The translations under genes were made by a program, and so were the position numbers. A stretch of DNA of 41,922 nt from Candidatus Magasanikiibacteriota bacterium (GTDB taxonomy: Bacteria; Patescibacteriota; Patescibacteriia; Magasanikbacterales; UBA922): assembly GCA_903837125.1 (NCBI GenBank), contig CAILTG010000082.1, positions 1-41,922 on the forward strand, read 5' to 3'. The notes below the pieces were generated by a model. It made no database searches. It saw nothing but the letters and a program-made list of their open reading frames with translations, and was not told where the DNA came from. Shown piece after piece: positions 26,338-36,033 of this stretch. The stretch's first letter is position 1, and every line of letters begins with the position of its first letter.

Positions 26338-27660
26338 ATGAAAATACTTTACGGCGAAGAAACCAAAAAAGCTATAGATAATTTTATTGTTACCGGTCAC
26401 CCATTTTCAGCGCGGCTGGCACACCGCTTATCAATGGTAAAAATTGCGGCGGCCAAAGCCAATGAGACAACCAAAATTTTACCAAAAAAAATTAGTACAG
26501 CTATTTGTCAGGCAGCTGAAGAAATTATCAGGCACGACTACGATGACAATATCGTGGTAGACATGATCCAAGGTGGAGCGGGCACCTCTATTAACATGAA
26601 CGTAAATGAAATTATTGCCGCGCGCGCTGAGGAAATCCTAAACGACGGTACAATTATCCATCCTCTTGATCATGTTAACCTCTCACAATCAACCAATGAC
26701 GTGGTCCCAACTGCAATGAAAATAGCCACCTTACAATTAATTGATAAACTCTTGGAAAAATATGAAAAGTACGCCGGAGTCATGGAACAAAAAGCAGTTG
26801 AATTTAAAACCGTACTGAAAATTGGCCGCACGCACTTGCAAGACGCCATCCCCATGACGCTAGGACAGGAATTTGGCGCTCACGCAGCGGCAGCACGCGC
26901 CGATATTGCCAGAATTAAACGCACTAGGCCAGGTTTATTTGAAGTCAATTTGGGTGGAACGGCAATTGGCACTGGGCTTAATGCTACCCGTGAATATCAA
27001 AAAATTGCCATAGAATATTTAGCCAAGCGCACTGGTTACCCACTCAAAGCAGCTAAAAATTTAATTTATGCCACTCAATATGCTGACAGTTTTATGGAGG
27101 TAAGCGCCATGCTCACAGTAATTGCCGCAAATTTGATTAAATGCATGAATGATTTACGTTTCTTAGCCTCTGGCCCAAGAACAGGTTTATCAGAAATAAA
27201 ATTTGATACTTTGCAAAAAGGTTCCTCAATTATGCCAGGCAAAATAAATCCAGTTTTGGCAGAAACAGTTAATCAAATTTGTTTCCAAATTATTGGCAAT
27301 AACCAAGCCACTTTTATGGCCGTACAGGCTGGGCAACTAGAATTAAATGTAATGCTACCCATAGTAGCTAAAAATCTTTTTGAATCTATCAATTCTCTGG
27401 CCAACGGTCTAGAAGTATTTACTAACAAAGCTCTTAAAACTTTACAAGCAAATACTGAACAGTGCCGAAAGCTCTTAGAAAATAGTTTTGCTCTGGCTAC
27501 GATTTTAACGCCAAAACTTGGTTATGATAAAGCTACTGCAATAGTAAAACAGGCCACAGCAGAAAATAAATCACTTAAACAAATACTAATAGAAAAAAAA
27601 TTAATGACTGAACAAGAATTTGATAAATTACTCAAAAACCCTAAGCTAGTTGGCTGGTAA
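26338..27660 (+). CDS. aspA: Aspartate ammonia-lyase (aspartase/fumarase class II)
   Basis: MIQGGAGTSINMNVNEIIAARA, SQSTNDVVPTAMK, GSSIMPGKINPVLAETVNQICFQIIGNNQA...GQLELNVMLPI (more AspA-like than FumC-like). Confidence 0.8.
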   Translation: MKILYGEETKKAIDNFIVTGHPFSARLAHRLSMVKIAAAKANETTKILPKKISTAICQAAEEIIRHDYDDNIVVDMIQGGAGTSINMNVNEIIAARAEEILNDGTIIHPLDHVNLSQSTNDVVPTAMKIATLQLIDKLLEKYEKYAGVMEQKAVEFKTVLKIGRTHLQDAIPMTLGQEFGAHAAAARADIARIKRTRPGLFEVNLGGTAIGTGLNATREYQKIAIEYLAKRTGYPLKAAKNLIYATQYADSFMEVSAMLTVIAANLIKCMNDLRFLASGPRTGLSEIKFDTLQKGSSIMPGKINPVLAETVNQICFQIIGNNQATFMAVQAGQLELNVMLPIVAKNLFESINSLANGLEVFTNKALKTLQANTEQCRKLLENSFALATILTPKLGYDKATAIVKQATAENKSLKQILIEKKLMTEQEFDKLLKNPKLVGW

Positions 27661-27667
27661 ACACTTT

Positions 27668-28576
27668 ATGCTTGAAACTTCTTTTCTTAACAAACAGTTC
27701 ACCAATCCCCTAGTTCTCGCCTCTGGTATTCTTGGGGTTACTGCCGCTAGTTTAAATAATGTTATTAAAAATGGTGCTGGCGGAGTAACTGTAAAATCTA
27801 TTTCACTTGAACCCAGAACCGGACATCCCAACCCCACCATGGTTCCTTACAAACATTTTTTTATCAATGCAGTAGGGCTTGCTAATCCAGGAATAGAAAA
27901 AGCGATTGAAGAATTAATCAAATTTAAAAAATTATCTAATGCTCCATTAATTGGGAGCATTTTTGCTGGCACACCAGAAGAATTCGGAGAAATTACCGAA
28001 CGGATTTGTGAAGCACCAATTGATTTTCTAGAAGTGGACATTTCTTGCCCTAACGTCAGCCGCGAATTTGGCGACCCTTTCGCCTATTCTGTTTCTGCGG
28101 TGGAAAAAATTACCAAATCAGTAAAAATTAAATCAAAAGTACCAATTTCTATTAAGTTATCTCCTAATGCTTGGAATATTGATGCAATTGCCAAAGCAGC
28201 TGAAGCCAGTGGTGCCAACGCTATTACTGCAGTAAACACCATTTCTGGAATGATGATTGATGTCCACGCCCGCCGACCAGTTCTACACAACAAACAAGGC
28301 GGAATTTCCGGTCCAGCTCTCTTCCCTATAGCCCTTAAATGCGTCTATGATATCTTTAAAGCGGTTAAAATCCCAATTATCGGTACTGGAGGGGTGACTA
28401 CGGGCGAAGACGCCCTAGCGATGATTATGGCAGGAGCCACTCTTGTTGGAGTTGGCTCAGCAGTATACTTTAGAGGAGTAGATTGTTTTGCTAAAATTAC
28501 CAGTGAAATGGAAGAAATAATGAAAGAAGAAAAAATAAAATCTTTAGATGAAATAAAAGGTGTTGCCCATTCTTAA
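27668..28576 (+). CDS. pyrD: Dihydroorotate dehydrogenase, class 1 (1B by PyrK neighbour)
   Basis: FTNPLVLASGILG, DISCPN (Cys base), KLSPNAWNI, NTISGMMIDVHARRPVLHNKQGGISGPALFPIAL, GTGGVTTGEDALAMIMAGA. Confidence 0.93.
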   Translation: MLETSFLNKQFTNPLVLASGILGVTAASLNNVIKNGAGGVTVKSISLEPRTGHPNPTMVPYKHFFINAVGLANPGIEKAIEELIKFKKLSNAPLIGSIFAGTPEEFGEITERICEAPIDFLEVDISCPNVSREFGDPFAYSVSAVEKITKSVKIKSKVPISIKLSPNAWNIDAIAKAAEASGANAITAVNTISGMMIDVHARRPVLHNKQGGISGPALFPIALKCVYDIFKAVKIPIIGTGGVTTGEDALAMIMAGATLVGVGSAVYFRGVDCFAKITSEMEEIMKEEKIKSLDEIKGVAHS

Positions 28577-28692
28577 AATTCACCTAATTATCTAATTACC
28601 TAATTCACCTAATAAAATTCCTAATATCAAATTCAAAAATTGTGTATTGGACATTTTATTAGAAATTAGGTGAATTAGGTGAATTGGAAATT
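28576..28692. repeat. Inverted-repeat spacer, AATTCACCTAAT/ATTAGGTGAATT family, copy 2
   Basis: Shares ATTTTATTAGAAATTAGGTGAATTAG exactly with 18507-18621. Confidence 0.85.
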
Positions 28693-29484
28693 ATGAATTT
28701 TCTTAAAATCTCCAAAATTGAAAAAGAAAACGAATTTGTAAAAACGTTCTATTTTAGTTTCTCATTAAACTCCAAGCCTGGTCAATTCGTCATGCTCTGG
28801 ATTCCAGGAATTGATCAAAAACCATTTTCTATTGCCCATGACGATGGCCAAACTTTTGGTTTAACAATTTTTAAACGCGGTGCCTTAACAGAAAAACTGT
28901 TTGAAATGAATGCTGGCGACCGAGTAGGTATTTCCGGTCCTTACGGCACTTTTTTTACTGTTCAACCAAACACTCATTATATTATGATAGCCGGTGGTTA
29001 TGGTGCCGCTCCGTTAGGATTTTTAGCTGAGAAAGTAACCAAAGAAAAAAATGTTAAAATTGATTTTATTGCTGGCGCTCGCAGTGCAGAAAATTTATTA
29101 TTTGAAGAACGTTTATTAAAAATACCAAACCTTACCTTGCACATTACTACCGACGACGGTTCAAAAGGACATAAAGGATACGTAACAGATTTACTTTCTA
29201 ATATAATTAATGTTGATTCGTGTAAAAATTTAGTGGTTACTTGTGGGCCAGAACTCATGCAAAAAAAAGTAATAGATTGCTGTAATCAATATAATGTTGA
29301 CTGTGAAGTAAGCATTGAACGCTATATGAAATGCGGTATTGGTGTTTGTGGACAATGTGCAGTGGATGATTTGGGGATTTGTATGTGTACCGAAGGACCA
29401 GTAGTTAAACGCGAATTGGCTAATAAAATTATAGAATTTGGAAAATATTATCGAGACAAAGCTGGCGAAAAAATATTCTTTTAA
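28693..29484 (+). CDS. pyrK: Dihydroorotate dehydrogenase electron transfer subunit
   Basis: FAD/NAD domain (KPFSIAHDD, MIAGGYGAAPLGFLAEK); 2Fe-2S CGIGVCGQCAVDDLGICMCTEGPV. Confidence 0.93.
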   Translation: MNFLKISKIEKENEFVKTFYFSFSLNSKPGQFVMLWIPGIDQKPFSIAHDDGQTFGLTIFKRGALTEKLFEMNAGDRVGISGPYGTFFTVQPNTHYIMIAGGYGAAPLGFLAEKVTKEKNVKIDFIAGARSAENLLFEERLLKIPNLTLHITTDDGSKGHKGYVTDLLSNIINVDSCKNLVVTCGPELMQKKVIDCCNQYNVDCEVSIERYMKCGIGVCGQCAVDDLGICMCTEGPVVKRELANKIIEFGKYYRDKAGEKIFF

Positions 29485-29491
29485 TTAATAT

Positions 29492-30088
29492 ATGATCAAA
29501 GAACTAATTATAAAACTATTCGAAATCAACGCCGTAAAATTTGGCGATTTCAAACTAAAAAGTGGTATCATGTCCCCTATTTATATTGATTTACGTGTGA
29601 CGGTTTCTTATCCAGAAATTTTAAAAATGGTCGCTGAAGCCATGTGGGAAAAAGTTAAAAATCTAAATTTTGATTTAATCTGCGGCGTGCCCTACACTGC
29701 CCTACCAATTGCCACAGTTATTTCGGTTGAACATAACAAACCAATGGTCATGCGCCGTAAAGAAATAAAAGATTACGGTACCAAAAAAGCCATTGAGGGA
29801 AATTTCTCAGCTGGTCAAACTGTATTGGTAGTTGAAGACCTAGTTACTAGTGGTTCAAGTGTTTTTGAAACTATTGAACCGCTTCAACTTGAAGGACTAA
29901 AAATTAATGACATTGTGGTTTTGATTGATCGTGAACAGGGTGGTAAAAAACATTTACAAGAAAAAGGCTATAATTTACATTCAGTAATTACTATTTCTGA
30001 AATGTTGGAAGTGCTGGGAAATGAAGGAAAATTGGCTAAAGAAATGGCTGCTAGAGTAAAATCATTTATCATAAATAACCAAGTTTAA
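29492..30088 (+). CDS. pyrE: Orotate phosphoribosyltransferase, UMPS-like
   Basis: FGDFKLKSGIMSPIYIDLR, CGVPYTALPIATV, MRRKEIKDYGTKKAIEG, VVEDLVTSGSSVFETIEPL. Confidence 0.93.
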   Translation: MIKELIIKLFEINAVKFGDFKLKSGIMSPIYIDLRVTVSYPEILKMVAEAMWEKVKNLNFDLICGVPYTALPIATVISVEHNKPMVMRRKEIKDYGTKKAIEGNFSAGQTVLVVEDLVTSGSSVFETIEPLQLEGLKINDIVVLIDREQGGKKHLQEKGYNLHSVITISEMLEVLGNEGKLAKEMAARVKSFIINNQV

Positions 30089-30095
30089 AAAATCT

Positions 30096-30198
30096 AAATT
30101 TCCAATGACAAATTTCCAATCAAATCCGAAATCCTAATATCAAAAATTTGGATTTTGATATTTGAACTTGATTTGACATTGGAAATTGGTAATTTGAA
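30096..30198. repeat. Inverted-repeat spacer, TTTCCAATGACAAATTTCCAATC/GATTTGACATTGGAAATT family
   Basis: ACTTGATTTGACATTGGAAATT exactly shared with 53-74; related to prmC-internal 2205-2262. Confidence 0.8.
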
Positions 30199-30202
30199 AT
30201 TT

Positions 30203-30967
30203 ATGCTATCATATTCTCAACGCGCCGACCTCTGTTCTAATCCCACCGCTATCCATTTATTAAAACTAATGGATCGCAAAAAAACTAATCTCTGTATTGC
30301 CGCTGATGTGGTAATGAAAGATGAATTATTAAAAATTGCTGACGAATTGGGCCCAGAAATTTGTATCTTAAAAACGCATATTGATATTATTGCTGATTTT
30401 GACGCTGATTTACTTATTGAACTGCAAAGATTTTCAGAAAAACACGACTTTCTGTTATTTGAAGATCGTAAATTTGCTGATATTGGTAATACAGTTAAAT
30501 ACCAGTATCAAGACGGTATTTATAATATTGCTGATTGGGCTCATATAACCAATGCCCACAGTGTTCCTGGCCCAGGAATTATCCAGGGATTAAAAGAAGT
30601 GGGTTTACCCAGAGGCCGAGGATTATTATTACTCGCTGAAATGAGTTCCAAGGGAACTTTAGCCAAGGGCAATTATACCGAAGAAACCCTTAAAATGGCA
30701 CAAGAAAACAAAGACTTTGTAATTGGTTTCATTACCATGCGGCAATTAATTGATGATCCTTGTTTTATTAACATGACTCCTGGTGTACAACTGGCCACAG
30801 GCGGCGATACACTAGGACAGCAATACTATACGCCAGAAAAAGTAATTAAAGAAAACAAATCCGATATTATTATTGTCGGACGAGGAATTTATGAAGCAGA
30901 CAACCCACTAGCTGAAGCCAAAAAATACCGAGAGGCAGGCTGGTTGGCTTATCAAAGCAGAACATAA
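30203..30967 (+). CDS. pyrF: Orotidine 5'-phosphate decarboxylase, eukaryotic UMPS-like
   Basis: [100 protein letters not shown]. Confidence 0.94.
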
Positions 30968-31006
30968 AAAAGTAGAGACGAGGCAGTGCCTCGTCTCTAC
31001 TTTTTT
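30966..31006. terminator. Long bidirectional terminator between pyrF and the SET gene
   Basis: AAAAAAGTAGAGACGAGGCA-G-TGCCTCGTCTCTACTTTTTT. Confidence 0.88.
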
Positions 31007-31017
31007 ATGTGTTTAAA

Positions 31018-31758
31018 TCATTTTTTTATTGGACAAGACAACAACAGGCCATCCATAACGCCATATACTGACAATTTTAATTTACTAAATTTAAGACAAC
31101 GTCCACTTTCCCTAATTCTTTTTCTGAGCTCTTTTATTGAAGGTAAAAAACTGTCTAAAAAAACCAACGGTTTTTTACTAAGATTTCCATAAATATCATA
31201 TGCTAAATAATCTGGTATAAATTCTGGATATTTTTTTAACGGAGGCAGGACCTGTCCAATTTTCACTTCCATTTTATTCCAGTACTTCTTATCAAGTTTT
31301 TTGGAAAAAACACTCCAACGACTGGTCCGGTCATCGGTACAATACATAGTAGCGCGACAAACCGGACTACCACAATGACAAATATCCACACAATCAAAAT
31401 CTTTTTCCGGAGGATAAAAATAATTAATTGTCAGTTCTTCTCCAACAAAAATCTTTCTCAAAGCAAAAAAGAGCATATGACCATGAAATTGAAAACTTTC
31501 GCAATTAGGCGAACAAGAATGATTAAACAAATATAAATCTGGTTTTTTTATATCCGGAAAGATCGCCGTTTTTGTGGTGTAGCACATACTATAAAAACCA
31601 AACTTTTTTTCATATTTTTCAAGATCATCATCAGCAATAATTATGCCTAAATAATCACCAATTAGAGTGCCGGCTTCAATATTTTTTGAAGCATATACTC
31701 CTCTACCTTTTTTCTTGGTTTTCCTTATTTCGTAATAGTCGCTAGAAATTAAAAACAT
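31018..31758 (-). CDS. SET-domain protein (lysine methyltransferase-like) with post-SET Cys cluster and about 90 aa C-terminal extension
   Basis: KGRGVYASKNIEAGTLIGDYLG, LFNHSCSPNCESFQF, GEELTINYFYP, CHCGSPVCRATMYC. Confidence 0.88.
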   Translation of the reverse strand: MFLISSDYYEIRKTKKKGRGVYASKNIEAGTLIGDYLGIIIADDDLEKYEKKFGFYSMCYTTKTAIFPDIKKPDLYLFNHSCSPNCESFQFHGHMLFFALRKIFVGEELTINYFYPPEKDFDCVDICHCGSPVCRATMYCTDDRTSRWSVFSKKLDKKYWNKMEVKIGQVLPPLKKYPEFIPDYLAYDIYGNLSKKPLVFLDSFLPSIKELRKRIRESGRCLKFSKLKLSVYGVMDGLLLSCPIKK

Positions 31759-31763
31759 AAACT

Positions 31764-34232
31764 TTAGATCCAGTTAGTCTGCAAATGATTATAAGGTGGA
31801 TTATTTTTGTAACGCTTAATGGCCATTCTAATTACTTCTTCCAAAAAGTCGCCATAATTCATGCCAATTAATTCTGCCACGCCCGGTGTACTATCTCCTT
31901 CGTTGATAGAAGGGTTAGGATTTAATTCCAGTACATAAGGATTATCATCTTTATCTACTCTAATCTCAATCCGGCCATAATCATGGCAATCTAAAATATT
32001 ATAAGTGTCTAAAGCAATCTCCGAAAGTAATGATTCTAATTTTTTACTAACATTTCTAGGCGGAGTTTGAATAATAATTTTATCGTAAACAGCATCATTA
32101 ATACCCCACTTGGCGTCAAAAGGATAAATATGCCAATAACCTTCGGGCATCTCTTTAAAAATAGAACGAGAGAGCGGTAAAACACGCAAATCTTTAGCAT
32201 CATTGCCAATTACATTCACATCATATTCATCTCCTTCAATATACTCTTCAATTAAGGCCGGAGACTTCAATCCCTCAATAACTTTTTTTAATTCACGATT
32301 CAATTCCTCTTTATTAGTAACTACTGAATCATTGGTGATACCTATGGAATTGTCACTATTGGCCGGCTTAACTATCAAAGGATACTGTAAATCTTCTCTA
32401 ATATCATCATCCATGGTATAAACATAATCCCATTCTGGAGTAGGTATATTATGATAAGACAATAATTTTTTTACCCTAATTTTATCTATACACAAAGCCA
32501 GAGTGGTAGGATTGGAACCAGTGTAAGGAATTTGTAATACATCTAATATTGAAGCGGCATGCGGCTCTAAAAGGCTAGAATTATTAATACGCTCACAAAC
32601 ATTAAAAACCACATCCACATCGCTATTTTTAAGTTGGTTAAAAGCTTCACCAATATTATTAAAATCAAAAAAAGTAACTTTATAACCCAACCCCTGCAAA
32701 GTTTTCTGGATAATATTACCTATGGAAGTTAAATCCGCCTCTATTGGATTTTGGCTATCATTAACATTGCAGGCAATACCAATATGCAAATTACGTTGAT
32801 TTTCTTTGGTAATTCTTTTTTTAATACTTTCTACTTTAGCCGCCTGAATAAGTAAATTTTTATTCAGAACCGCTGAAGAATACCGATCTTTACGCGTGGT
32901 TTTACCGATTGAAGAACTGTTGGTAAATTTAACCACACTATAACTAATATAAGACAAGGCCTCTTTTAAATTATCTTGGGCATCCAAATAATTAGCTCCT
33001 GAAACTGTTAACCAACCTAAACTTTCATAACCTTCTGGTGGTAAAAGAATGGCATCACCAACTTCCCGATAAAGATCAATATCCTCCAAATATTTCTTTC
33101 TCTTTAATTCATCTGAAACAGATAATTCCACTACCAAACCAGAATTATCCGGATACAAATCCCAGCCCACCACATACTTTCTGGGCATTAAATTTTTCAT
33201 GTTTTTCAAAAATGAACCAAAAGCAATCTTAACTGCGCCTTCAATCAAATCTACCCCCCAAGCATCTTTAATATAAGAATAAACATAATCACCTCCCAAG
33301 CGCAAATTAACTTCCAAAGGCACTGGACCATTTTTAGTAGACTTGGCTTCAAAATGAATACAACCATTTTGAATTCCCAATTTTTCCAAAGTTTCCTCAG
33401 CCATTTCAATCAATTCTTTTTGATTAACCTCTGGCAAAGTAGACGGTGTGGCCTGTCCACTATCAATAAAAAATTCACCCTTATCTTTATTAAAATTATC
33501 GGAAACCGCATAAAACTTGATTTTCCCATTTTGCAGCAAAATATCAATATCCACCTCATTACCGCTTATATATTCTTCCACAAAAATATCCATGCCATCA
33601 GCCAAAGCAGTTTCCACATCTGACGAAATAATTTTTTGGATGTAATTAAAAGCCTCTTCTAACCCGTTCGCCTCATCAACTTTGAGCACAAAAGCACCTC
33701 TGGACCCAAAAACCGGCTTAACTACCAAGGGAAAATTAAAACTATTTTTTACATATTCTAGATCATCTTTGTTCTTTATTATTTTATAATGCGGAGTAGT
33801 AATTCCATTTTTACCGCAAAATTCCCTAAATAGATACTTGTTTCTTACCTGTGCAGAAATATTGAAAGGCACACCAATCAAATCAAGTTTGTCCACGATT
33901 TTGGAAGTTAATAAAACGTCGTCCTCCCAAAAAGTAACCACTCCATCAATTTTAATCTCTGCATTATTCTTTAAAAATAAATTTAATTTTTTTATTGAAT
34001 CAGCATGGTTAAAAGTGTCGGCAATAATCCAATGATCCACATATGGCTCAGCCCAATTTTTTTCTCCATTTAAAACCACAATCTTCAAATCCATTTTCTT
34101 TAATTTTTGAAAAATAAATTTTTTCTCTAGTGGTCCGGTATTTATCACCAACAAAGTTTTTCCATGGTAGCCATTACCAGAGTCAACTTCAGTTAAATTA
34201 TTTAAATTTTGACTTTCAAGATTATTATCCAT
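31764..34232 (-). CDS. Double ATP-grasp protein: N-terminal carboxylate-amine ligase-like, C-terminal D-Ala-D-Ala-ligase-like
   Basis: 822 aa; module 1: NFPLVVKPVFGSRGAFVLKV, VEEYISGNEVDIDILL, PLEVNLRLGGDYVYSY; module 2: PYTGSNPTTLALCIDKIRVKKLLSYHNIPTP, YPLIVKPANSDNSIGI, IEEYIEGDEYDVNVIG, GRIEIRVDKDDNPYVLELNPNPSI. Confidence 0.85.
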   Translation of the reverse strand: MDNNLESQNLNNLTEVDSGNGYHGKTLLVINTGPLEKKFIFQKLKKMDLKIVVLNGEKNWAEPYVDHWIIADTFNHADSIKKLNLFLKNNAEIKIDGVVTFWEDDVLLTSKIVDKLDLIGVPFNISAQVRNKYLFREFCGKNGITTPHYKIIKNKDDLEYVKNSFNFPLVVKPVFGSRGAFVLKVDEANGLEEAFNYIQKIISSDVETALADGMDIFVEEYISGNEVDIDILLQNGKIKFYAVSDNFNKDKGEFFIDSGQATPSTLPEVNQKELIEMAEETLEKLGIQNGCIHFEAKSTKNGPVPLEVNLRLGGDYVYSYIKDAWGVDLIEGAVKIAFGSFLKNMKNLMPRKYVVGWDLYPDNSGLVVELSVSDELKRKKYLEDIDLYREVGDAILLPPEGYESLGWLTVSGANYLDAQDNLKEALSYISYSVVKFTNSSSIGKTTRKDRYSSAVLNKNLLIQAAKVESIKKRITKENQRNLHIGIACNVNDSQNPIEADLTSIGNIIQKTLQGLGYKVTFFDFNNIGEAFNQLKNSDVDVVFNVCERINNSSLLEPHAASILDVLQIPYTGSNPTTLALCIDKIRVKKLLSYHNIPTPEWDYVYTMDDDIREDLQYPLIVKPANSDNSIGITNDSVVTNKEELNRELKKVIEGLKSPALIEEYIEGDEYDVNVIGNDAKDLRVLPLSRSIFKEMPEGYWHIYPFDAKWGINDAVYDKIIIQTPPRNVSKKLESLLSEIALDTYNILDCHDYGRIEIRVDKDDNPYVLELNPNPSINEGDSTPGVAELIGMNYGDFLEEVIRMAIKRYKNNPPYNHLQTNWI

Positions 34233-34240
34233 AAAAAAAA

Positions 34241-35164
34241 TTAAACATTATCAAAAAAATAAGTCGGTCTTTTTTCCAAACGCCAATGGTCTTTCCAGCC
34301 ACATTCATCAGCTAAATAATTAATTTCTTTGGCTTTTAAACCAATAGCATCCTTAATACATTCTACATTCAAATATTTATAAATATTGTTTATCTCTTCT
34401 ACATTACCAGACTGTAATAAAGTGTATACTCCATTATAAAAAATGTTGACAGTTGCTGCTTTTAACTCACCATCAATCTCTAAACTAACCATTCTGATTT
34501 TGTCTTTTAAAGACTTCTCCGCCAATAAACTTTTAAAAACCAAACGAAAACTATCTTCACTAAATAAAGATTCCTCCCCAAATCTTTTTTTATTCATTTT
34601 TACCATTTCTTCAAAATCAGCAAAACGATTGAAAAAAACTTGTGGCTGGAGAGCGGCTATTTTTTTAAGCTCATTATTAATATTTTTACGACTTTTTTTG
34701 CTAAAAGATAAAAAATACTTTTCCAAACTGTAATCGTATTTTTCTAAATCTAAAAAATAAATTTCTTCATCTGGCTGTAATTCAGGTAAATAAACTAATT
34801 CTTGATGATCAATAAATGATAAACAAACTTTTTGCCCAGGGACATTGGCTAAAAACAACTTTAAATATTCTCGCTTAAATTCTTCTTTTATATAAAAAGT
34901 AAATTCTTCCAACCAGTCTCCTCCTCCCCAAAAAACATAATAACCATCATTTTGATCATTATCATACTCTTCATAGAGCAAAGGCAAAAAACCAATATCT
35001 TCGCCATTTAGATTTCCCACCAAAAAACTAGGAGGGTATTTTGATTGTTTGGCAAAAATATTTCTTACCTCCCACAAATCTGCAAAACTTTTCTTTGGTG
35101 AAAAAAAATTCCAAAGTTTCTGACATTCTTTCAGATCATTCTCCACTCTAAACGTTATAGCCAT
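34241..35164 (-). CDS. GNAT-fold protein of the CelD/FemAB-like (Acetyltransf_6) type
   Basis: 307 aa; KKSRKNINNELKKI, FADFEEMVKMNKKRFG, RMVSLEIDGELKAATVNIFYNGVYTLLQSGNVEEINNIYKYLNVECIKDAI, WRLEKRPTYFF. Confidence 0.75.
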   Translation of the reverse strand: MAITFRVENDLKECQKLWNFFSPKKSFADLWEVRNIFAKQSKYPPSFLVGNLNGEDIGFLPLLYEEYDNDQNDGYYVFWGGGDWLEEFTFYIKEEFKREYLKLFLANVPGQKVCLSFIDHQELVYLPELQPDEEIYFLDLEKYDYSLEKYFLSFSKKSRKNINNELKKIAALQPQVFFNRFADFEEMVKMNKKRFGEESLFSEDSFRLVFKSLLAEKSLKDKIRMVSLEIDGELKAATVNIFYNGVYTLLQSGNVEEINNIYKYLNVECIKDAIGLKAKEINYLADECGWKDHWRLEKRPTYFFDNV

Positions 35165-35171
35165 AATTTAT

Positions 35172-35200
35172 AAAAAACCAAGTTCGCCTACCGAACTTGG
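35172..35200 (-). terminator. Terminator-like hairpin in the leader of the GNAT/ATP-grasp/SET operon
   Basis: Minus strand CCAAGTTCG-GTAGG-CGAACTTGG-TTTTTT; GNAT ATG at 35164. Confidence 0.85.
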
Positions 35201-35265
35201 TTGAATGATTTCGATATTAGCAAACAAATTTTTTGAAAAAATAATTTTCAAACACTTCTACCAAT

Positions 35266-35293
35266 ATTGTATCATTATTAGAATATTAGTCAA
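35266..35293 (-). promoter_or_regulatory. Promoter upstream of the leader hairpin
   Basis: Minus strand TTGACT-16 nt-TACAAT with TGA before the -10. Confidence 0.65.
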
Positions 35294-35322: not shown

Positions 35323-36033
35323 TTAGGCATGAGGAAGATTACTAATTAAATTTCCCAAATCATCCACATCGGCCTTACTCACAATTCCTTTACGACGATC
35401 CATTTCCATTTTATATTTCATTTCTCGTCGTGCCTGGCGCGAAATAGGTTTACCTACCCCCACACCCTTAACATAAGGTTTAACTAAATCAAAAAAATAT
35501 TTTTGGTCTTTATCACTAATATTTTTAAAGGCCACTGGATTTAATTTACGCAAACGATAAAATTGTCGCCTAAAACTAGTAACACTTCTATCCATTCTAA
35601 AACCACTACCTGTCTTCACATTCATTTTTTCATAAACCCCCCCACTAGCCGCCTCAGCTAGTTTAGCAATCTCTTTGGCTTTTTCATTAGCTCTTTTTTG
35701 CATTGCCAATCGTTGTCCATAATGATATCTTGTCTCATTAGCCTCCTCATTATAAAGACCCTCCACAGCAGTAGCATTTTTGTCTCCCAAATGAGCTACA
35801 GAAGTGGTGGGAGACAATTCATCATTGCCAACTCGTGACACCGAAGTAGTGGCTTTACTACTAGGGTGTACCAACTGATTCATGGACACTTTGGCATTGT
35901 CAAGATCTTTTTTTTGATTTAATTTGGAAATCGAAAAATTTTGCGCCCGTGCTATACCACTTGATGGTACTGAACCAGAAGATTTAGAATTAGGCAAGAC
36001 TGATGGTAAATTTACAGCTGGATTGATAGGCAT
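35323..36033 (-). CDS. Hypothetical protein, Ser-rich N-terminus, basic C-terminus
   Basis: 236 aa ORF; stop 6 nt before miaA is in the same direction (miaA stop at 36040); no family recognised. Confidence 0.6.
   Translation of the reverse strand: MPINPAVNLPSVLPNSKSSGSVPSSGIARAQNFSISKLNQKKDLDNAKVSMNQLVHPSSKATTSVSRVGNDELSPTTSVAHLGDKNATAVEGLYNEEANETRYHYGQRLAMQKRANEKAKEIAKLAEAASGGVYEKMNVKTGSGFRMDRSVTSFRRQFYRLRKLNPVAFKNISDKDQKYFFDLVKPYVKGVGVGKPISRQARREMKYKMEMDRRKGIVSKADVDDLGNLISNLPHA

Follow-up and report, generated by a model that had tools for sequence, protein, structure and literature searches.

A fused double ATP-grasp ligase with FemX-like and SET-domain partners: candidate core of a peptide pathway in Candidatus Magasanikiibacteriota and related bacteria

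A 41,922-nt stretch of DNA (positions 1-41,922 of contig CAILTG010000082.1, assembly GCA_903837125.1), called the window below, comes from a Candidatus Magasanikiibacteriota bacterium, a member of the candidate phyla radiation (CPR) with a very small genome, and carries a compact operon of three minus-strand genes encoding, in this order, a GNAT-type protein, a double ATP-grasp ligase and a SET-domain protein (Table 1). On balance we favour the view that this operon is part of a pathway leading to a short modified peptide, independently of the ribosome, of nonribosomal peptide synthetases (NRPS) and of the ribosomally synthesized and post-translationally modified peptide (RiPP) route. More tentatively, and with less than even confidence, we propose that a fused core of L-amino acid ligase (LAL) and Ddl type is served in this pathway by FemX-like, tRNA-fed transferases and by a SET methyltransferase that tailors a small peptide. 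That the SET enzyme acts on a small peptide and not on a protein is held less firmly than the small-peptide reading itself.

The central gene product is a fusion of two ATP-grasp modules. Several Pfam ATP-grasp families match its N-terminal half over residues 130-340, and LAL_C2 follows at 359-432; the best solved relative of this half is the L-amino acid ligase BL00235 (2e-30, aligned over residues 37-416), and the N-domain, ATP-grasp core and LAL_C2 that mark ligases of the BL00235/BacD type are all present. The C-terminal half matches Dala_Dala_lig_C (PF07478; 3.8e-33 at residues 608-801) as well as the Ddl family TIGR01205 (9e-44), with 149.8 bits against a family cut-off of 245.65; the latter match starts after that part of the family which contains the GGxSxE segment, by which Ddl holds the first D-Ala. 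Both halves resemble RimK or TTL weakly and are closer to the ligases of free amino acids and dipeptides (BL00235, Ddl). Full-length relatives of the double ATP-grasp protein were found at 43 loci across the phylum (44 loci were mapped by script, and the open reading frame (ORF) 14657-17056 of L103 was dropped as spurious, given its extreme branch length). Among these 43 members, K132, K172, E226, E295, E307, R311, G313 and G314 of the N-terminal half are invariant, as are D760 and P774 of the C-terminal half, in which K622 is kept in 41, K584 in 40 and E769 in 39 members. The ELNPNPSI motif is present, its position 771 being Asn in the window and Asp or Glu in 8 of the 43 relatives. The GGxSxE segment was found in none of the 43 members, and neither mur nor division genes adjoin the ligase gene in the mapped loci. 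On motif, score and gene context an ordinary Ddl in a mur-ddl setting is rejected, a finding that would have told against the proposal in the preliminary description of this DNA, made from the sequence alone. Outside the phylum, a Priestia plasmid encodes a relative of the N-terminal half (29% identity) clustered with a phosphoenolpyruvate-mutase-family protein, thiamine diphosphate enzymes and an M20 peptidase, a gene content that fits the synthesis of a peptide metabolite.

The protein encoded by the first gene matches Acetyltransf_6 (PF13480; 2e-14), and its structure model (predicted local distance difference test, pLDDT, 85) is predicted to adopt the tandem-GNAT fold characteristic of FemABX-type enzymes. 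The top structural matches of the model are FemX of Weissella (3e-11) and Sbb17/Sba18 (4e-9), followed by MprF-type lysyl transferases; Sbb17 and Sba18 are aminoacyl-tRNA-dependent peptide synthases. By motif reading, 15 of the 16 members of this GNAT family carry an aromatic-Lys pair close to their C-terminus, and the basic helix is general. Catalytic-site residues have been described for FemX (Lys305) and for DhpH-C (Phe328-Lys329) (PMC12945691). The aromatic-Lys pair may comprise the same catalytic lysine, an equivalence judged by position, not by superposition, and the protein is predicted to be a transferase that is probably fed by aminoacyl-tRNA. Matches to the SidK effector, obtained when the GNAT alignment was used in a profile search of the PDB, were weak, ran along charged helices and were judged spurious.

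The product of the last gene matches Pfam SET (5e-19) and possesses intact SET motifs, namely NHSCSPNC (with NHS at position 79), EELTINY at 107 and a post-SET CHCGSPVC (CxCx4C) at 127; both the fold search and the best PDB matches lead to MLL1. Two types of SET proteins occur beside the double ATP-grasp genes, one with the post-SET cluster and the C-terminal extension (the window, L003 and L081), the other short. A plasmid search with the SET protein returned no match. In what it saw of the three genes, the preliminary description proved accurate: the ORF calls reproduce exactly the gaps of 8 and 5 nt that it had placed between the three minus-strand genes, while Pfam and the ORF translation agree with its two fused ATP-grasp modules, the C-terminal one Ddl-like and carrying ELNPNPSI, its FemAB-like GNAT protein and its SET protein with NHSCSPNC and a post-SET Cys cluster.

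What is conserved is not the strict trio but the double ATP-grasp gene, a hub with interchangeable partners. Of the 59 nearest genomes, counting the genome of the window itself and split or divergent copies, 10 carry this gene, as do about 24 of the 383 class genomes (~6%), and a dozen more loci lie elsewhere in the phylum; named relatives carrying it include Parcubacteria and Gribaldobacteria. Within four genes of the hub we found a FemX-like GNAT gene at 15 loci, a MurL-like gene at 14, SET and LysA-like (diaminopimelate-decarboxylase-like) genes at 8 each, a third ATP-grasp at 7, an L-Ala-D/L-Glu-epimerase-like gene at 5, a PurD-like ATP-grasp and an M17 aminopeptidase at 3 each, a DegT-like gene at 2, and KamA and an LPG_synthase_C-type GNAT at one locus each. 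Directly after the hub and on the same strand, GNAT stands 10 times, SET 5 times and the MurL-like gene 5 times, and within one genus-level group (g130) this slot is occupied by SET in one genome and by GNAT in four. One genome (G031) has two consecutive hubs together with MurL-like, KamA, SET and M17 genes. The Ala/Glu epimerase is matched at 2e-56 and LysA at 3e-42, KamA lies above its cut-off, and NF041275 is matched by 7 of 11 MurL-like partners, at 6e-10 in the best case. Among solved structures, the MurL-like alignment has no relative.

The links between the hub and its partners are not due to chance. Although hub loci supplied the sequences for the GNAT and MurL-like alignments, the genome searches made with these were blind to position, so that any unlinked homologue of comparable strength would have appeared. 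In the 59 genomes, the GNAT alignment gave 7 matches in 4 genomes, 7 of 7 adjoining these ATP-grasps; on one short contig of G009 the neighbour is a Ddl-type piece of the hub. The MurL-like alignment gave 4 matches, two beside a double hub and two beside paired single Ddl-like ligases. SET genes occur in 96 of the 383 class genomes and adjoin the hub in 6 of them, against 0.09 expected from SET density (P ~8e-10); they are also commoner in genomes with a hub (12/24) than in the others (84/359; Fisher P 0.006). The SET label requires at least 6 changes on the hub tree, which implies that the pairing of SET with the hub was made or lost repeatedly. The functional link that had been suggested among the three genes is supported by these counts for the SET, GNAT and MurL-like families. 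The expectation that the trio would co-occur held in part: the genes do lie near each other in relatives, but all three are found together only in the window and at L038 (G020).

Two ATP-driven modules in a single chain suggest two successive amide bonds. In the order of reactions that we propose, the LAL-type half would phosphorylate the carboxylate of one amino acid or peptide and couple it to an amine, after which the Ddl-type half would form a second amide bond on the product. The FemX-like GNAT protein would move one more amino acid from aminoacyl-tRNA onto an amine of the peptide, and the SET enzyme would use S-adenosylmethionine to methylate the side chain of a lysine in this peptide. 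At other loci, where the GNAT or SET slot is taken by the MurL-like epimerase, the L-Ala-D/L-Glu-type epimerase, KamA or the LysA-like decarboxylase, a family of related peptides may be made; the recurrence of epimerase, aminomutase and decarboxylase families suggests D-, beta- or decarboxylated residues in such variants. The SET, KamA, LysA-like and LPG_synthase_C enzymes all come from families whose substrates are lysine or the precursor of lysine, which makes lysine a reasonable guess for a constituent of the peptide, and nothing firmer. The preliminary description had left open whether the three proteins build or tag a peptide or a protein. The MurL-like, LysA-like and KamA partners and the third ATP-grasp point to a small-peptide pathway and not to protein tagging; neither a protein substrate nor a precursor peptide was found near the hub.

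Several observations weigh against this small-peptide pathway. Characterised SET enzymes are protein lysine methyltransferases. The structure model of the SET protein is weak (mean pLDDT 60) and supports the fold but not the pocket, while the small SET proteins at some loci are devoid of the post-SET cluster or of the NHS histidine. As a single operon the full trio exists in the window only, the GNAT gene at L038 being divergent, with a MurL-like gene in between. Finally, MurL, Ddl, FemX, LysA and the Ala-Glu epimerase are also enzymes of peptidoglycan type, which suits the main rival explanation, according to which the operon makes a non-canonical stem or bridge peptide of the cell envelope: the Ddl-like half would supply a terminal dipeptide, the GNAT protein a bridge residue, and the SET enzyme would methylate a lysine of the stem or bridge. 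The host genome itself (98% complete) contains 5 matches to penicillin-binding protein (PBP) transpeptidases together with MurC/Mpl-like, MurE-like and two MurF-like ligases, and its only Dala_Dala_lig_C matches fall inside the ATP-grasp gene; given these PBPs and Mur ligases and the lack of a further Ddl domain, the hub could feed a cell-wall peptide. We nevertheless consider this explanation unlikely. A strong Ddl match is missing from most members of the same family, hub or no hub, and one genome (G057) carries a canonical Ddl in addition to the hub, so that a simple replacement of Ddl by the hub is not general. Moreover, the D-Ala-recognition motif is absent throughout, the hub is set apart from mur and division genes, and its partners differ among genomes. 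Elsewhere in the genome of the window (contig C94, L098 512-2556), a MurC/Mpl-like ligase gene stands beside a gene for a 223-aa protein that is weakly arginyltransferase-like (3e-8); this protein represents another possible tRNA-dependent peptide step.

A second explanation, raised in the preliminary description and regarded here as improbable, has the ligase and the GNAT protein decorate a cellular protein with amino acids and the SET enzyme methylate the same protein. It draws on the protein substrates of known SET enzymes, on the proximity of the window SET protein, with its post-SET cluster, to the MLL histone methyltransferases, and on the fact that RimK- and TTL-like ATP-grasps tag proteins. 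However, it is to BL00235 and Ddl that the two halves of the ligase are closest, no conserved candidate target gene is found near the hub, and the substrates of KamA, LysA-like and epimerase partners are free amino acids or short peptides. In a third scenario, the ATP-grasp protein would modify a ribosomal precursor peptide, as in a RiPP cluster of the graspetide type. For two branches of CPR bacteria, graspetide clusters, which use precursor peptides, have been predicted (PMC8939145); with the pathway proposed here they share ATP-grasp-based peptide biosynthesis in CPR. Yet among 451 small intergenic ORFs near hubs no precursor is conserved beyond close relatives, no RiPP peptidase or leader-type gene is seen near hubs, and the sequence relatives of the ligase halves are L-amino acid ligases and Ddl; a RiPP precursor was therefore rejected, and the scenario appears very improbable. 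That the genes are chance or housekeeping neighbours without a shared function is scarcely credible in view of the SET adjacency, the full linkage seen for both the GNAT and the MurL-like family and the tight operon of the window, even though 8 of the 43 hub loci have no recognised partner and the hub lies in a conserved slot near ileS in some genomes.

Table 1. Features of the operon and its borders in the window
Feature	Position	Strand	Description
FemX-like tandem-GNAT protein (PF13480), first gene, 307 aa	34241..35164	-	predicted aminoacyl-tRNA-dependent transferase; W290-K291 motif, basic helix 156-170
Double ATP-grasp ligase, 822 aa	31764..34232	-	residues ~25-435 resemble the L-amino acid ligase BL00235 and include LAL_C2; ~480-810 Ddl-like
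SET-domain protein, 246 aa	31018..31758	-	MLL-like SET, post-SET Cys cluster, conserved ~110-aa C-terminal extension
20-pair terminator-like hairpin, T-rich flanks on both strands	30965..31007	.	between the SET gene and the convergent pyrF-like gene
Promoter-like site TTGACT-16-TACAAT, TG before the second hexamer	35266..35293	-	ahead of the GNAT gene; weakly supported
11-bp hairpin followed by a T run, presumed 5' leader	35176..35202	-	11 nt ahead of the GNAT start codon (ATG); perhaps an attenuator or an upstream terminator

The downstream hairpin and the promoter-like site fit a stand-alone operon. The latter site, which agrees with the consensus at 10 of 12 positions, precedes the GNAT start by about 100 nt; overall, the promoter scan did no better than on shuffled sequence. 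The leader hairpin has a fold z-score of -3.2; no Rfam family fits the 5' leader, riboswitch matches being sub-threshold and at chance level. Upstream of the operon we find, by eye, an orphan ORF followed by what we take to be miaA-like and miaB-like genes. The orphan (236 aa, 35323-36033, on the operon strand, between the operon and the miaA-like gene) has no match in Pfam, NCBIfam, PHROGs or PADLOC. Downstream lies a convergent cluster of plus-strand genes (26338-30967), presumably for pyrimidine synthesis, in which we read PyrD (27650), PyrK (28684), PyrE (29492) and PyrF (30155); the PyrF-like protein includes a 13-residue stretch that appears familiar from eukaryotic-type orotidine monophosphate decarboxylases. 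PADLOC models matched none of the four proteins tested, and as PHROG matches are likewise absent, an anti-phage defence function or a phage origin was rejected.

The gene neighbourhoods offer some further observations. In the order to which the window belongs, the hub often occupies one conserved place, flanked by ileS on one side and by ruvA-like/NIF3-like genes on the other (L036, L037, L039, L041, L042 and L043), while the hub of the window stands beside the pyr cluster. Two loci (L050 and L049, in G040 and G047) carry an unfused version of the hub, with tandem single Ddl-like ATP-grasp genes beside a MurL-like gene; at L050 there is an additional SET gene ~3 kb away. In another part of the phylum (L112-L114, in G622, G675 and G697), the hub is followed by a second, LAL-like ATP-grasp, a third ATP-grasp, a divergent GNAT gene and a LysA-like gene.

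CPR bacteria, which are mostly host-dependent, are commonly portrayed as having little biosynthesis of their own. A peptide-metabolite pathway in such cells, if confirmed, would open to experiment the question of what they may produce for hosts or competitors, and would place SET enzymes in a new setting beyond the methylation of proteins. Each of the enzyme classes is known; the open-access papers searched describe neither the fused LAL-Ddl ligase nor its link to SET, nor a hub of this kind with FemX-like and MurL-like partners.

The individual components can be compared with characterised systems. The SET protein shares NHS, EELTxxY and the post-SET CxCx4C with the MLL/KMT2 type, but it is encoded in a CPR peptide-ligase operon, has a conserved extra C-terminal region and stands in no histone context that we could see. 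With FemX, Orf11/Sbb17, DhpH-C and PacB, the GNAT protein has in common the predicted tandem-GNAT fold, the C-terminal aromatic-Lys pair and the basic helix; it differs from them in being ~10-14% identical, in belonging to sequence family PF13480 and in its operon with ATP-grasp and SET genes. The MurL-like hub partners, which are absent from the window, match the family of the peptidyl-glutamate epimerase MurL, but far below its cut-off, and are linked to ATP-grasps instead of MurD2. The C-terminal half of the ligase is similar to Ddl in its TIGR01205 and PF07478 matches and in the ATP and metal residues, most of which are kept, whereas the lack of the GGxSxE substrate motif, the sub-threshold score and the location outside a mur operon set it apart. 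The N-terminal half, with its conserved ATP-grasp Lys, Glu and Arg residues and LAL_C2, is of the BL00235/BacD kind; unlike those enzymes, it is fused to a second, Ddl-type ligase and is accompanied by FemX-like, MurL-like and SET partners.

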